Translations under genes and position numbers: made by a program
From: Anaerolineaceae bacterium
Lineage (GTDB): Bacteria > Chloroflexota > Anaerolineae > Anaerolineales > Anaerolineaceae
Direction of reading: 5' to 3'
DNA: 50,603 nucleotides
Assembly: GCA_019429225.1 (NCBI GenBank)
Contig: JAHYJK010000008.1
Coordinates: 1 to 50,603 of the forward strand
Part shown: piece by piece, positions 43,701-49,570 of the stretch
Position numbering within the stretch: the stretch's first letter is position 1
How the letters are laid out: each line of letters starts with the position of its first letter
The notes under the pieces: model-generated
What the model saw: the letters and a program-made list of their open reading frames with translations, nothing else
Databases searched by the model: none
Told to the model about the DNA's origin: nothing

Positions 43701-44411
43701 TTATCCACCGCCTAAATACGCTTCTTTCACCATTGGATCTTCCAACAAATCACCGGCGTCCCCTTCCAGCACAATCTTGCCGGTCTCGAACACGTAACCA
43801 CGATCAGCAATTGACAATGCCATCTGGGCGTTTTGTTCCACCAGCAGGATTGAAGTTCCCTGCTGATTAATCTCGCGAATGATATCAAAGATCTGTTCCA
43901 CGATGATGGGTGCCAGACCCATGGAAGGTTCATCCAGCAGTAACAATTGTGGACGAGCCATCAACCCACGGGCAATCGCCAACATTTGTTGTTCGCCACC
44001 TGAGAGGGTACCTCCCAACTGTTTGCGCCTCTCTTGTAAACGCGGAAACTTTCCAAATACCATTTCGATGTCCGCTTCAATCCGTTGACGATCAGAATAA
44101 ATATAAGCGCCCATTTCCAGATTTTCCACCACCGACATTTTGGGGAAGATTCTCCTTCCCTCTGGTACCTGGACGATTCCCCTGGTAACAATATCCTGGG
44201 GTGGTGTTTCCACAATGGATTCACCTTTGTAGCGTATATCACCAGTAGTGGGTTTATTCAGACGGGAAATCGTGTTCAATGTGGTTGATTTTCCAGCACC
44301 ATTCGCGCCAATCAAAGCCACAATTTCACCCTCTTCCAGGTGAAAGGAGATCCCTTTTAATGCGTGGATAGCGCCATAATGTACGTTAAGATTTTCAACT
44401 TCAAGCATCAT
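43701..44411 (-). CDS. livF: Branched-chain amino-acid ABC transporter ATPase LivF
   Basis: 236 residues from ATG 44411 (44408 equally possible), which overlaps the end of livG. ABC ATPase signatures: Walker A ALIGANGAGKSTTLN (~35-49), signature TLSGGEQQMLAIARGLM (~135-151), Walker B LLLLDEPSMGLAP (~156-168) and the switch His replaced in the usual LivF way by SILLVEQNAQMAL. The short length and the VPEGRRIFPKMSVVENLEMGAY motif distinguish LivF from LivG. Forms the cytoplasmic ATPase pair with LivG for leucine/isoleucine/valine uptake. Last gene of the operon, followed by a strong terminator. Confidence 0.95.
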   Translation of the reverse strand: MMLEVENLNVHYGAIHALKGISFHLEEGEIVALIGANGAGKSTTLNTISRLNKPTTGDIRYKGESIVETPPQDIVTRGIVQVPEGRRIFPKMSVVENLEMGAYIYSDRQRIEADIEMVFGKFPRLQERRKQLGGTLSGGEQQMLAIARGLMARPQLLLLDEPSMGLAPIIVEQIFDIIREINQQGTSILLVEQNAQMALSIADRGYVFETGKIVLEGDAGDLLEDPMVKEAYLGGG

Positions 44412-45213
44412 GCGTTTTCTCCCGTCGATATTTTTCGGATAAGGCGGCCGCCCCAGGTCCCAGATAGGCTTCAATCACGCGTGGATTGGCCTGTATTTCT
44501 TTGGGATTCCCCTCGGCAATCTTTTGTCCATAATCCAGTACTGAAATCTGATCAGAAATGTTCATCACCACACGCATGTCATGTTCGATCAGGATAATCG
44601 TGATTTCCAGATCATCGCGGATGTGACGGATGAAATCCTTCATGGCATCTGTTTCCTGAGGATTCATCCCAGCAGTGGGTTCATCCAGCAATAATAATTT
44701 GGGCTGGTTGGCTAATGCCCGTGCAATTTCCAGGCGTCGCTGAGCTCCATATGGTAAGTTTAATGCCAGGTTATCCCCCAACCCAGCCAGGCCTACATAA
44801 TGTAATAAGCGGCTGGCTTCGTTGATGATGTGTTTCTGTTCTTTCTGGTAATCGGGTGTTTTTAACATCGCTTTCATCCAGCCATGTTTAAGGTGTGGTT
44901 CAAAGCCCACCATTACATTCTCAACAGCAGACATGTTTTTAAACAAGCGAATATTCTGGTACGTTCGGGCAATCCCCATGGCTGCCACCTTATCAGTAAG
45001 CATACCCTGGATTTTACGCCCATTAAACAATACGTCCCCAAGTTCTGGTGTGTAAAATCCAGAAATGCAGTTGAACAAAGTTGTTTTTCCAGCGCCATTT
45101 GGACCAATAATACTGGCTATTGCACCTTCAGGAACGACAAGATCAACTTTATTTACTGCTACCAGACCACCAAATATTTTTGATACCTGACGAGCTTCGA
45201 GCACCGTTTTCAT
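44401..45213 (-). CDS. livG: Branched-chain amino-acid ABC transporter ATPase LivG
   Basis: 270 residues. Walker A IIGPNGAGKTTLFNCISGFY (~35-54), GIARTYQNIRLFKNMSAVENVMVG (LivG-specific Q-loop region, ~80-103), signature LPYGAQRRLEIARALA (~158-173), Walker B LLLLDEPTAGMNPQE (~177-191) and switch IILIEHDMRVVMNISD (~210-225). The LivG-type C-terminus GNPKEIQANPRVIEAYLG is present. Partner of LivF. Its ATG overlaps the livM stop by 4 bp, so the operon is tightly coupled. Confidence 0.95.
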   Translation of the reverse strand: MKTVLEARQVSKIFGGLVAVNKVDLVVPEGAIASIIGPNGAGKTTLFNCISGFYTPELGDVLFNGRKIQGMLTDKVAAMGIARTYQNIRLFKNMSAVENVMVGFEPHLKHGWMKAMLKTPDYQKEQKHIINEASRLLHYVGLAGLGDNLALNLPYGAQRRLEIARALANQPKLLLLDEPTAGMNPQETDAMKDFIRHIRDDLEITIILIEHDMRVVMNISDQISVLDYGQKIAEGNPKEIQANPRVIEAYLGPGAAALSEKYRREKTHDA

Positions 45214-46781
45214 TTCTCACCTCCAGCTGTAGCAGGCAAGGGTACCGGTTCATGATCCTGTTCGACAGGCACCTCCAGTTTGGGTCGTCTGGCTGGCCAT
45301 AACCCTTCAGGACGGATGATCATCATCACAACCAGCAATGCACCAAAAACCAATAAACGGTAACTTTCCAACTCCCTAAGAATCTCTGGTAGACCTTTTA
45401 AGGCAAAAGCTCCTAAAACGACACCCGGGATACTGCCCATACCGCCTACAATCACCAACACCAGCACGTTAATCGAGACCATCAAGGCATGATCTTCGGG
45501 GCCGGTGAATTGGTTGCGCGAAGCAAACAATGCGCCTCCCAATCCCGCAAAAGCAGCACCCAGGGACAGTGCTAATAATTTATATTTTTGAGTATCAACA
45601 CCCGTTGCCTGTGCAACCGTCTCATCCTGACTGATTGCCAGCCAGGCGCGACCAATACTTGATTCCTGCCAGCGTCTGGCAAGAAAGATCGAAAGCAACA
45701 CAGCCAGAATAATCAAATACATGAAATCAACATCGGTTGTAAATGACCGGCCAAATAATGTGGGACCAGCAATATTTCGCACACCTCTTGGCCCCATGGT
45801 GAAATCTTTTAATATATCACTGCGCAATAAAATTCGGATGATCTCCCCAAAACCCAAAGTCACAATTGCCAGATAATCACCTCGCAACCGCATGATGGGT
45901 AAGCCAATCAAAATACCTGATAAAGCAGCTGCCAAAACCGCCACCCCCAGAGCAATCCAGAAATTCCAGACCAGGTTATGTGGTTCAGGTGAAGTAGTCA
46001 GAGCGAAGGTATAAGCACCAATGGCAAAGAAAGCTACATAGCCCAACACCAATTGACCAGAAAGACCAACAATAATGTTCAAACCGAGACCCAACAGAAC
46101 GTAGATGCCAACGGTTCCCATTACATAATTCCAGTAAGCACCCCAGGTGCGTGGTAATAAGACCAATAAGAGCAGCACCACACCCATTAGAACATAACTA
46201 ACATAGGGGTTTCCCTGCAACTTACCCAACCACCGATCCTGTGACCATTTCTGAATGGACTCTCGCGTTGATTTCACGCGTTCCCGGCTGCGTTCGCTGG
46301 CTACAGCTAGAAAACCACCTATGACTGCCATTAATGTGCTGTAGAAAACATGAATTAATCCACCTACAACAATAGTCTGATTAAATAGGAAGAACCTGAC
46401 AGACTCAGAGGAGAGTTGGCTCAGGTAAGTACGCAAGTTGATTCCACTATTATTAAGCGCTCCTACAATCAGCGCATAGACCATCACCAAAACACCTGCT
46501 ACTAAACCGGCAATCGCTGAGCGACCAAGAACCTTTTTTACACTAAGTGTCTCATGTTTATCCTGTCGGGATGCGCGCCAACCATTCCATATTCCCAATA
46601 AACCCAAAAATATGAGGAAACTGCTGATGGAAGGGATTTGACCTACCCCTAAAGATTGACCTAATGCTTTCTGTATCAAACCTGAAAATACGACCGTGAA
46701 ACCAATCAACGCAAAAAATATGACAATGATTCCAAACACCAAACCACTCGCGGCGGATTTTTGAATAGATTGCTTGTTCAT
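45210..46781 (-). CDS. livM: Branched-chain amino-acid ABC transporter permease LivM with N-terminal extension
   Basis: 523 residues, about 200 longer than a minimal LivM. The family core begins near 195 (SYVLMGVVLLLLVLLP) and includes GLNIIVGLSGQLVLGYVAFFAIGAYTFAL (~235-262), MRLRGDYLAIVTLGFGEIIRI (~300-320), GVRNIAGPTLFG, RAWLAISQDETVAQATGVDTQKYKLLALSLGAAFAGLGGALFA and the C-terminal IPGVVLGAFALKGLPEILRE. The extra N-terminus holds about four more TM helices (~15-35, 45-60, 85-110, 130-165) of unknown role. Overlaps livH by 4 bp and livG by 4 bp. Confidence 0.93.
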   Translation of the reverse strand: MNKQSIQKSAASGLVFGIIVIFFALIGFTVVFSGLIQKALGQSLGVGQIPSISSFLIFLGLLGIWNGWRASRQDKHETLSVKKVLGRSAIAGLVAGVLVMVYALIVGALNNSGINLRTYLSQLSSESVRFFLFNQTIVVGGLIHVFYSTLMAVIGGFLAVASERSRERVKSTRESIQKWSQDRWLGKLQGNPYVSYVLMGVVLLLLVLLPRTWGAYWNYVMGTVGIYVLLGLGLNIIVGLSGQLVLGYVAFFAIGAYTFALTTSPEPHNLVWNFWIALGVAVLAAALSGILIGLPIMRLRGDYLAIVTLGFGEIIRILLRSDILKDFTMGPRGVRNIAGPTLFGRSFTTDVDFMYLIILAVLLSIFLARRWQESSIGRAWLAISQDETVAQATGVDTQKYKLLALSLGAAFAGLGGALFASRNQFTGPEDHALMVSINVLVLVIVGGMGSIPGVVLGAFALKGLPEILRELESYRLLVFGALLVVMMIIRPEGLWPARRPKLEVPVEQDHEPVPLPATAGGEK

Positions 46782-47884
46782 ACCTTCTCCTCCGTTAGGG
46801 CTTCACCTAAAATTCCGGATGGACGGAAAATCAATACCAGGATCAGAATGGTAAAAGCTAGAACGTCTTTCAACTGGAAATCTATCCCCAGCACTGCTGG
46901 TCCTACCGACTCCACTATTCCCAGGAACATCCCGCCTAACATAGCACCCGGTATGTTGCCAATTCCACCTAAAACCGCAGCTGTGAATGCTTTAATACCT
47001 GGTAAAAATCCAACAAAATAGTTAAACAACCCGTTGTGAATACCCCACATCACCCCCGCTGCACCAGCCAGTGCACCACTGATAACAAATGTACGGCTGA
47101 TGATTTGGTCAACATTGATACCCATCAAGGCTGCAGTTTTCTTATCCTGTGCAACCGCGCGCATCGCGCGACCCAATTTCGTGCGTTGTACCAATAGATA
47201 AAGACCTACCATTAAGATTGCAGATAAAATTAAAGAAAAAATACCCGTATACGTCAGAACAACCGTACTGCCTGCAACTTCAAGATTCCAACCGATTCCA
47301 CGATCTAAAACCACCGGGTTTATGTATTGGCGACGTTGTGGACCAAATAATAATTGACCCGCATTTTGCAGGAAAATGGAGGCACCAATCGCACTGATTA
47401 ATGGAACCAATCGAGGAGCACCTCTTAATGGCCGGTAGGCAATCTTTTCAAGGAACAGCCCTGAGAGCGCTGCGATCGTCATCCCGGCTAAAAACGCAAG
47501 CAGAATAGCTATGACCGGATAGGCGTTCAGAAAAGATAACTGGCTGCCATCTGCGCCACTCACCTGGATGGCATTGAATGCTTCAAACACAAAATAACCA
47601 CCAAATGTGCCGATCATCATCACTTCACCATGTGCAAAATTGATCATGAACAAAATACCATATACCAATGTATAACCAATTGCAATCAGTGCATACATTC
47701 CACCGATGATCAACCCAGAAACAGAAAGTCGCAGCCAGGTGTCTGCCCCGAACTGCGACTTTGCAGCAACATCCATTGCACGCACAATAATAAGCGCAAG
47801 CAAAAGAAGCGCTGCAATAATTCGAATAATTCGGATACTATTCTGGGGCAATGTAAGCGAGAACTTTTTACGCAAAGCTTCCAT
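46778..47884 (-). CDS. livH: Branched-chain amino-acid ABC transporter permease LivH
   Basis: 368 residues, with a longer N-terminus than usual (an extra helix at ~18-38 before the family start LRLSVSGLIIGGMYALIAIGYTLVYGILFMINFAHGEVMMIGTFGGYFVF, ~55-105). The FAHGEVMM motif is diagnostic. Later LVPLISAIGASIFLQNAG, RAMRAVAQDKKTAALMGINVDQIISRTFVISGALAGAAGVMWG and GIKAFTAAVLGGIGNIPGAMLGGMFLGIVES are also canonical. Pairs with LivM in the membrane. GGAGG about 9 nt upstream. Separated from livJ by a hairpin. Confidence 0.95.
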   Translation of the reverse strand: MEALRKKFSLTLPQNSIRIIRIIAALLLLALIIVRAMDVAAKSQFGADTWLRLSVSGLIIGGMYALIAIGYTLVYGILFMINFAHGEVMMIGTFGGYFVFEAFNAIQVSGADGSQLSFLNAYPVIAILLAFLAGMTIAALSGLFLEKIAYRPLRGAPRLVPLISAIGASIFLQNAGQLLFGPQRRQYINPVVLDRGIGWNLEVAGSTVVLTYTGIFSLILSAILMVGLYLLVQRTKLGRAMRAVAQDKKTAALMGINVDQIISRTFVISGALAGAAGVMWGIHNGLFNYFVGFLPGIKAFTAAVLGGIGNIPGAMLGGMFLGIVESVGPAVLGIDFQLKDVLAFTILILVLIFRPSGILGEALTEEKV

Positions 47885-47934
47885 TGAGCCTCCAATGTGT
47901 TCAAGTTAGGATTTTTCTATCATACCACAGGGAA

Positions 47935-47964
47935 ACTGCGGAAAGGGTTTTTCCTCTCCGCAGT
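47935..47964 (-). promoter_or_regulatory. Intercistronic hairpin between livJ and livH
   Basis: ACTGCGGA (47935-47942) / TCCGCAGT (47957-47964). On the minus strand no good U-run follows. Position after the binding-protein gene suggests mRNA 3'-end protection or partial termination, giving more LivJ than permease. Confidence 0.55.
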
Positions 47965-47985
47965 GACCCTAAAATTTCAAAACTC

Positions 47986-49194
47986 TTACTGCTCAGCCTG
48001 CGCCCAATCTCCACCTTTTACGATGTAGAATGTTGGGCCAGCCGTATTACATTCACCAACAGCATCACAGGTGATATCACCGGTAATACTGGAGAATCCT
48101 TGCGTACCACGTACTGCAGCAACCAGAGCACCACGAGGTACATAGAGTGTACCATCGGAACCTAATACAGCGACTTCTTTCACCTTTGCCATTAACACAG
48201 CAGCTGAGTCATATCCACTCCAGGTATAGGGGGATAATGTTCCTGCACCAACACCATAAGCTGCCAGGTAATCAGCATCAAATTTTGCTTTTTCAGCAGA
48301 TTCCGGTGGGATTAAGGAAGCCGCATAGGCACCTTCACCATTGGCACCTGTTTTCTCAACAAATTCAGTACCAAAGGTTCCATCACAACCGAAGAAGACC
48401 GCATTTTCCAGACCACTTTGTTTCATGTTGTTGGTTAATACAACACCTTCAGCCACATAACCACCAAAGTAGACGGCTTCAGGAGAGCTAGCAGCCAGTG
48501 CTGATAATGTAGCAGTGTAATCTGTTTCACCTGGGGTGACCGCTTCGTAACCCACAACTTCGCCACCTAATTTGGTGAATTCGTCGCGAACGACATCAGC
48601 CAAACCCTGTCCATAAGCGCCACCATCGTGCAGTACAGCAATCTTGCGGAAACCTAATTTTGAATAGAGATAATCGGCAGCGAATTTACCCTGTACCGCA
48701 TCTGTAAATGCAACACGATTGAAAACCTTTGAACCGAGGGTGGTTAATGGTGGGTTGGTAGCAGAAGGAGACATCATGGGGATTCCAGCTTTATCATAAA
48801 CCGGGATAGCTGCTTCCGTTGAACCTGAGAAAATATGACCAGCAATTGCCACAACGGTTGGATCTGTTGCGAGTTTGTTCGCAACTGCAGCGCCACCTTC
48901 AGGAGCACCCTGAGTGTCCTGAGCTACGAGTTCAAATGCAAAGCCTTCTACAGTACCTGCATCTTTGACTGCAACAGCAGCACCCTGGGAGATATCCACA
49001 CCAAATGAGGCGTAATCACCGGTGAGAGGGGCACCCATACCAATTTTAACTGTCTGACCAGCAGGAATCTTGGCACAACCAAATTCATCACTGGCACAAA
49101 CTTCAGGTTCGCCACCAGCTGGGGCAGCGCCATTACAACTTGCCAAAACCATGGCAAAAACGACAAACACAAAAAACAATACACTTTTCTTCAT
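47986..49194 (-). CDS. livJ: Branched-chain amino-acid ABC transporter substrate-binding lipoprotein
   Basis: 402 residues. Lipoprotein signal with lipobox VLASC (~16-20), then a type I periplasmic-binding fold: VKIGMGAPLTGDYASFGVDISQGAAVAVKDA (~49-80), AVANKLATDPTVVAIAGHIFSGSTEAAIPVYDKAGIPMMSPSATNP (~100-145), GGAYGQGLADVVRDEFTKLGG, then EAVYFGGYVAEGVVLTNNMKQSG. It delivers leucine, isoleucine, valine or related amino acids to LivHM; exact specificity is not predictable. An acidic insert (ASDEFGCAKI, with Cys) follows the signal peptide. AGGAGGA is the ribosome site. First structural gene after a 340-nt leader with a terminator. Confidence 0.95.
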   Translation of the reverse strand: MKKSVLFFVFVVFAMVLASCNGAAPAGGEPEVCASDEFGCAKIPAGQTVKIGMGAPLTGDYASFGVDISQGAAVAVKDAGTVEGFAFELVAQDTQGAPEGGAAVANKLATDPTVVAIAGHIFSGSTEAAIPVYDKAGIPMMSPSATNPPLTTLGSKVFNRVAFTDAVQGKFAADYLYSKLGFRKIAVLHDGGAYGQGLADVVRDEFTKLGGEVVGYEAVTPGETDYTATLSALAASSPEAVYFGGYVAEGVVLTNNMKQSGLENAVFFGCDGTFGTEFVEKTGANGEGAYAASLIPPESAEKAKFDADYLAAYGVGAGTLSPYTWSGYDSAAVLMAKVKEVAVLGSDGTLYVPRGALVAAVRGTQGFSSITGDITCDAVGECNTAGPTFYIVKGGDWAQAEQ

Positions 49195-49331: not shown

Positions 49332-49370
49332 TCAAAAAAAAACCACCCTTTGGTGTTCGTTGGGTGGCTT
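49332..49370 (-). terminator. Attenuator: intrinsic terminator inside the liv leader
   Basis: On the minus strand AAGCCACCC (49370-49362), 13-nt loop, GGGTGGTTT, then a run of nine T (49342-49334). It lies 140 nt upstream of livJ and ~165 nt after the predicted start, with no minus-strand structural gene before it. The 5' arm CCCAAC (49364-49359) is complementary to GTTGGG in the leader ORF (49432-49427), giving an alternative antiterminator. Confidence 0.85.
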
Positions 49371-49393
49371 CTTTGCTTCTACTTTTTATTTTC

Positions 49394-49510
49394 CTAACTT
49401 ATCTTGATTTTTATCTTTTCTGCTCGCCCAACATCAAACCTGGCCTTCATAATAATATGGAGGAACCAATAAAGCATGATAATAATAATAGCGAGTGAGG
49501 TATTTAACAT
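49394..49510 (-). CDS. Candidate liv leader peptide (38 aa, four tandem Ile codons)
   Basis: A 38-codon ORF from ATG 49510 to TAG 49394, wholly inside the leader between promoter and terminator. Codons 8-11 are ATT ATT ATT ATC (Ile x4, 49489-49478), followed by further Leu and Ile codons; 13 of the 38 residues are Leu, Ile or Val. The operon it precedes transports these amino acids. CTCGC just before the Ile run (49495-49491) can pair with GCGAG (49427-49423), which overlaps the antiterminator strand GTTGGG. A ribosome stalled on the Ile codons would block the first pairing and favour the antiterminator. Weak points: no clear Shine-Dalgarno, and two very short out-of-frame starts just upstream. 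Not conserved-tested. Confidence 0.6.
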   Translation of the reverse strand: MLNTSLAIIIIMLYWFLHIIMKARFDVGRAEKIKIKIS

Positions 49511-49542
49511 GACATTTATCACATTCGTTTAGGATTTTGCTG

Positions 49543-49570
49543 ATTATACAGTGTTTTATTAATCTGTCAA
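49543..49570 (-). promoter_or_regulatory. Near-consensus promoter of the liv operon
   Basis: On the minus strand TTGACA (49570-49565), 16-bp spacer, TATAAT (49548-49543). Predicted start near 49536 gives a leader of about 340 nt to livJ. Confidence 0.8.

Follow-up and report, generated by a model that had tools for sequence, protein, structure and literature searches.

Leader-peptide attenuation is a textbook mechanism for the control of amino-acid biosynthesis in a few phyla. The ilvGMEDA, ilvBN, leuABCD, his and trp operons of E. coli share with the leader described here a short open reading frame (ORF) with many residues of the amino acids under regulation and the choice between an antiterminator and a terminator, but they control biosynthesis, whereas the present leader precedes uptake genes. 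Also unlike the E. coli trp and his layouts, its region 2 (R2) and a hairpin termed P1 sit inside the ORF. The ilvGMEDA leader peptide contains 32 residues, 15 of them branched-chain, as cited in PMC6123439. In C. glutamicum, the ilvBNC leader resembles the present one in layout, with terminator, antiterminator and anti-antiterminator hairpins, codons for branched-chain amino acids (BCAA) and a near-leaderless ORF, the transcript reportedly beginning a single nucleotide away from the leader's start codon; it is, however, a 15-residue leader of a biosynthetic operon in another phylum (PMC11857589). Similarly, BCAA-responsive leader peptides belong to the ilv-leu attenuators of Staphylococcus aureus and Listeria monocytogenes, which serve biosynthesis, are under CodY and occur in Firmicutes (as outlined in PMC6123439; cf. 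PMC5794164 and PMC5864092). The uORFC-8-2 motif before cysS in Rhodobacterales is likewise a lineage-wide attenuator found by comparative genomics but, unlike the liv leaders, it carries tandem Cys codons and precedes a tRNA-synthetase gene (PMC8632094). T-box leaders (RF00230) also respond to tRNA charging and switch a terminator; no Rfam match to RF00230 was found at the livJ region studied here (811 bases). A 2013 survey took the view that the Rfam attenuator motifs of that time may be of gammaproteobacterial origin and have seldom been transferred, their target genes being mostly biosynthetic (PMC3766115).

Neither a liv leader attenuator nor a leader-peptide attenuator of Chloroflexota was found described in the open-licence full texts searched; an earlier note on this DNA likewise knew of no description. 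The locus lies on the minus strand of a 50,603-nucleotide stretch from an Anaerolineaceae bacterium, the whole of which is hereafter called the window (Table 1). It comprises, in order, the promoter, the leader ORF containing R2, the stop codon, the terminator, livJ (49194-47986), livH, livM, livG and livF, the stop codon being situated 24 nt beyond R2 and 26 nt ahead of the terminator hairpin. The promoter, the ORF with four Ile codons, the terminator and the liv genes are all present where the earlier note had placed them; its count of 13 branched-chain residues in the peptide was one too low, as 14 of the 38 residues are I/L/V.

Table 1. Features of the candidate attenuator and its operon in the window (positions counted from the first nucleotide of the window).
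Feature	Positions	Strand	Basis or remark
Promoter, TTGACA-16-TATAAT	49543..49570	minus	12/12 consensus; conserved in genus
Leader ORF, MLNTSLAIIIIMLYWFLHIIMKARFDVGRAEKIKIKIS, 38 codons and TAG	49394..49510	minus	ATG at 49510; comparable ORFs in relatives
Region 1, CTCGCT, would-be anti-antiterminator partner of R2	49490..49495	minus	Weak; in predicted MFE fold
Ile codons 8-11, ATT ATT ATT ATC	49478..49489	minus	Probable control codons
P1 hairpin, CCTCCAT..ATGAAGG, one mismatch in window	49444..49463	minus	Permutation and covariation in relatives
Region 2 (R2), GTTGGGCGAG, inside ORF, mimics terminator 3' arm	49423..49432	minus	Permutation and swap tests
Region 3 (R3), GCCACCCAAC, terminator 5' arm and loop bases captured by R2	49359..49368	minus	Lineage-varying loop-side pair
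Intrinsic terminator, CCACCC..GGGTGG and nine T	49334..49367	minus	Hairpin 49367-49343, T run 49342-49334
livJHMGF, controlled operon	43701..49194	minus	ORFs and Pfam

Sixteen promoter-like sites were found in the 7.6 kb scanned, against 17.2 expected by chance, and the one upstream of the leader is the only 12/12 consensus match among them. Because the number of sites matches the chance expectation, this promoter draws its weight only from being a perfect match and from being conserved. The scan listed zero promoter-like sites on the minus strand from the terminator to livJ. The terminator hairpin, which has a 13-nt loop, was absent from the standard terminator scan and was detected by a scan permitting longer loops. 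The leader ORF is without Pfam or NCBIfam match. In livJHMGF, PF13458, PF02653 (twice), PF00005 (twice) and PF12399 were found above their cut-offs; the NCBIfam liv models were the top matches, yet all five scores fell under the model cut-offs. Since gene naming is secure at the domain level (Pfam) only, the liv substrate is presumed. A strong Shine-Dalgarno sequence is lacking at the leader ORF, as the earlier note had conceded; many relatives share this weakness and have a weak one, and the end of the -10 box lies 16-22 nt from the start codon in leaders of several relatives. A separate element, AAAGGAGG (49290-49283, minus strand), lies between the terminator and livJ; it is fully complementary to the anti-Shine-Dalgarno sequence, yet no start codon is evident after it. 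A similar motif occurs in 63 of 95 distinct livJ upstreams, including those without the attenuator, and the element may be a 30S-binding stabiliser of the mRNA.

Against permuted codons, the window alone gives p=0.032 for R2:R3, p=0.34 for the pairing of region 1 with R2 (1:2) and p=0.25 for P1, so the case depends on relatives. Whole genomes together with named contigs supplied 153 livJ loci with 98 distinct upstreams, of which four under 300 nt were dropped, leaving 94; eight distant livJ-like loci (L024-L031) had been left out beforehand. Leaders were picked by hand from a detector's list, and one cut by a contig end (L078) was not counted. The full layout was found in 37 of the 94 upstreams, spanning seven genera of the window's family, and the leader is missing in the other 57, that of Ornatilinea apprima among them. 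The cultured Longilinea arvoryzae has the livJ leader, and those relatives in the set that bear a name are classed as Anaerolineaceae or Anaerolineales. All seven members of the window's genus that have a close livJ keep the promoter, ORF, R2 and terminator, with identical promoter hexamers and spacing, while their leader ORFs and spacers diverge around the kept elements; in an eighth genome of the genus (G006), a close livJ was not found. On a livJ tree of 93 rows, leader presence needs 7 changes versus 29.3 in shuffles, and thus the leader is inherited, with some gains or losses. As rows are related, the p-values given below overstate independence.

The possible antiterminator had been recognized in the earlier note as GTTGGG (49432-49427) with CCCAAC (49364-49359). 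The positions were confirmed, and the R2:R3 pairing is stronger than under codon permutation (p<=0.05) in 27 of the 37 leaders; 25 lineage picks gave a mean z of -2.45 and a Fisher value of 2e-19. When whole leaders were swapped, each being free to pick its best partner segment, the pairing reached -16.5 kcal/mol with the leader's own terminator arm versus -13.3 kcal/mol with swapped ones, and none of 20,000 permutations was as good (4 of 20,000 when each genus was represented by a single leader). The same test was not significant inside genus g8 alone (3,448/20,000), in which the antiterminator is nearly invariant, so that no covariation is measurable there. Between lineages, the pair x in CCCAAx/xTTGGG, which lies in the terminator loop and outside the stem, is C-G in L002 and L099-L101, A-U in L103, U-A in L104 and G-C in L120, and is mismatched in L102 and L130. 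Covariation of the antiterminator was not above shuffles in the A3 alignment (193/500), in which MAFFT misplaced the key column in two rows. By these sequence comparisons, R2 and the terminator arm that it is predicted to capture are co-evolved.

The anti-antiterminator is the weakest element of the candidate attenuator. The CTCGC (49495-49491) and GCGAG (49427-49423) segments named in the earlier note can pair, an outer 1:2 stem is seen in many predicted folds, and swapping region 1 between lineages weakens the pairing (1/10,000 permutations as good); against codon permutation, however, only 7 of 37 leaders reach p<=0.05, the window's not among them, the lineage picks giving a Fisher value of 7e-4. 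The P1 hairpin inside the ORF has the hydrophobic codons on one side and R2 on the other, and it is stronger than under codon permutation (p<=0.05) in 26 of 37 leaders. Of its seven pairs, five have changed on both sides in some sequences of genus g8, and its structure score was reached by 0/500 shuffles; with the pairs slid by +1, two-sided cells numbered 10 versus 8, but pairs 4 versus 6 and pairing 53% versus 90%. Alignment of the relatives upstream of livJ, a check proposed in the earlier note, thus found the ORF, antiterminator, terminator and in-ORF hairpin kept across seven genera and co-varying, and its core proposal, a leader-peptide attenuator with a competing antiterminator before a liv operon, is supported by this cross-genus conservation and covariation.

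The run of four Ile codons, which the earlier note had taken as the control element, fared differently: it is already absent in the same-genus leaders L006-L008, which have a mix in its place (e.g. VIALIYVFMIW), and what is kept is a stretch of I/L/V with F/Y/W/M. Over the first 22 codons after the start, the 37 liv leaders contain 39% I/L/V, 22% F/Y/W and 8% M, the F/Y/W/M share together being 31%, and less than 4% K/R/D/E, and Trp occurs within the first 24 residues of 34 of them. The I/L/V share is above that of a base shuffle (32%) and not above that of a shuffle preserving codon position (0.391 vs 0.406); because the latter yields an equal share, I/L/V richness alone was dropped as proof. 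The lack of in-frame stops was likewise dropped as coding evidence because the ORFs had been selected as open frames. The mixed stretch in relatives suggests a sensor broader than Ile, and it is probably not only Ile but a number of hydrophobic amino acids that the leader senses.

Further evidence comes from the same scaffold before other genes. Eight livJ leaders, and no others, went into a covariance model that was run on 147 family genomes, and 42 of its non-liv matches were read, excluding one overlapping match on the opposite strand (G072, E 0.06). Among these, 27 precede ilvD and eight (L188, L196, L197, L198, L203, L206, L207 and L214), with hydrophobic codons, precede a gene for a small membrane protein that weakly matches the ECF S component (PF12822, 28.0 bits, cut-off 30.7) and is followed by an ABC ATPase. 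Single matches lie before ilvB, a citramalate-synthase-like HMGL gene, a tryptophanase-family gene and a further livJ; the remaining three (L213, L218 and L219, E above 0.006) have no such gene or leader. In the window genome itself (L220, contig C194), the DNA upstream of the ECF S-component gene is unrelated and contains no leader, which may reflect an insertion or an assembly join. A second model, built from 25 mixed leaders (ilvD, ECF and liv), was run on 400 genomes of the order and had matches at E<=0.01 in 209 of them. The 12 second-model loci that were read are all ahead of IlvD-like genes, one of them Pfam-checked, and 85 of 87 matches could be assigned (two unassigned) with the use of 47 livJ places (46 of 63 listed rows and one other), a proportion that partly reflects training on ilvD, ECF and liv leaders. 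In a further set of 20 loci, five (L261, L262 and L265-L267) had no assigned gene; L261 and L265 have Ala/Leu-rich leaders (..LALALALTIAL..) and terminators, with no downstream gene identified in the fetched kilobase. At L259 and L176, two complete leader-terminator units stand in tandem ahead of ilvD, and coordinates suggest several more such pairs.

The codons of these leaders follow the gene. In 29 biosynthetic leaders, 382 of 638 residues (59.9%) are I/L/V and 49 (7.7%) are F/Y/W/M, with zero Trp, whereas in 38 liv leaders 326 of 831 residues (39.2%) are I/L/V and 255 (30.7%) are F/Y/W/M; the eight ECF leaders fall between the two (45.5% and 19.9%). Start codons were chosen partly by hydrophobicity in the scaffold survey, and two were reset by hand for this comparison. 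Biosynthetic and liv leaders are fully separated per leader (Mann-Whitney U=0), and the F/Y/W/M count is higher in the liv leader in all seven genomes having both kinds. The difference persists in codons 2-13 alone and thus is not caused by P1. Phe/Tyr-type leaders were found at 4 of 30 pheA loci (30 examined of 55 listed pheA genes), three of them reading ..YSFYFYF.., ..YVYGYFYF.. and ..FFYFYFF.. and the fourth having five Phe in 26 residues; an example of a pheA leader peptide is MKTPTANTFFYFYFFTPFKRTGVSSW. A DAHP-synthase gene has the leader ..YTYYFRFGYYY.., and the gene of the tryptophanase or tyrosine-phenol-lyase family (L201) has a Tyr-rich one (..YYRYYHYYY..). The latter is odd for a degrading enzyme, as attenuation would turn the gene on under Tyr scarcity. 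At 16 trpE loci examined, a leader of the attenuator kind was not found, and T-box leaders precede trpE in all five family loci scanned (L312, L313, L315, L318 and L324); the family employs T-boxes in the case of Trp, and leader peptides where branched-chain or Phe/Tyr genes are concerned.

This tracking of the downstream gene by codon content speaks for a sensor based on ribosome stalling and against a small membrane protein acting together with the transporter, the hairpin being its own terminator with fixed partial read-through. About 20 hydrophobic residues and a charged C-terminus do resemble a single-span protein, but the scaffold bears other amino acids before ilvD, pheA and the tryptophanase-like gene, R2 within the ORF co-evolves with the terminator, residues are weakly conserved between genera, and leaders of only 18 or 23 residues exist (L130, L133 and L134); we regard this explanation as very unlikely. 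Gene-specific codons are predicted neither by a common membrane peptide nor by a plain RNA element. A metabolite-binding riboswitch or a protein-dependent antiterminator with an incidental ORF would have an identical terminator/antiterminator logic and could account for a conserved P1; it is slightly more improbable still, as P1 and R2 vary freely in base sequence among lineages with pairing kept, the codons follow the gene, and the Rfam gathering score was reached by no family in the window region (811 bases) or at five leader loci. The best Rfam match was Phe_leader (RF01859; 49507-49333), with 20.3 bits versus the 55 required and an E of 1.1. Just as improbable is a TnaC-like arrest of the nascent peptide, responsive to a free amino acid rather than to starvation at codons, for which the frequent Trp would speak, since it requires conserved residues, none of which except Trp is kept across genera, and since read-through from amino-acid excess has the wrong sign for an uptake system.

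The elements, their conservation and their co-evolution are observed, as is the gene-following codon content in relatives, and the livJHMGF leader is very probably a ribosome-mediated transcription attenuator. How translation, stalling and read-through would proceed, and which amino acids would be sensed, we infer as follows. RNA polymerase would start at the promoter (49570-49543), and a ribosome would translate the 38-codon leader. With scarce charged tRNAs (Ile foremost, and probably Leu, Val, Phe, Tyr, Trp and Met), it would stall on or near codons 8-18 and hide region 1, and the free R2 would capture R3 as the antiterminator, so that livJHMGF is transcribed and uptake is increased. When charged tRNAs are ample, the ribosome would reach the stop codon just beyond R2, or region 1 would pair with R2 behind the ribosome; with R2 hidden or paired, regions 3 and 4 would fold as the terminator. 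Across the leaders, the stop codon lies a median of 12 nt past R2 (range -21 to 43) and a median of 26 nt (5 to 71) from the terminator hairpin, spacings that fit a terminating ribosome that shadows R2 and leaves the terminator free.

It is also rather probable, with considerably less confidence than for the attenuator itself, that one scaffold is used across the order with a codon cassette swapped per gene: I/L/V for ilvD, ilvB and citramalate synthase, Phe/Tyr for pheA, Tyr for DAHP synthase and the tryptophanase-like gene, and the full range of hydrophobic residues, Trp included, for uptake. Because uptake and biosynthetic leaders share the scaffold and differ in codons, the leader would indicate the amino acids of the transporter. 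If true, it is a readable code for substrate range, by which the liv system is predicted to import aromatic amino acids and Met too, and the ECF-type transporter of the same genomes to import hydrophobic amino acids. As for the host, the window genome (97.9% complete) showed no PF00920 (ilvD), PF00800 (prephenate dehydratase) or PF04715 (TrpE N-terminal) at the thresholds used, whereas 14, 14 and 13 of 14 control genomes, respectively, were positive. Thus, the organism may depend on import for its branched-chain and aromatic amino acids, an incomplete assembly being the other possibility, and a leader sensing both kinds would suit such dependence. Overall, attenuation logic across this order of Chloroflexota would reach beyond biosynthesis to uptake, and leader codons may give testable predictions of transporter substrates in uncultured bacteria.
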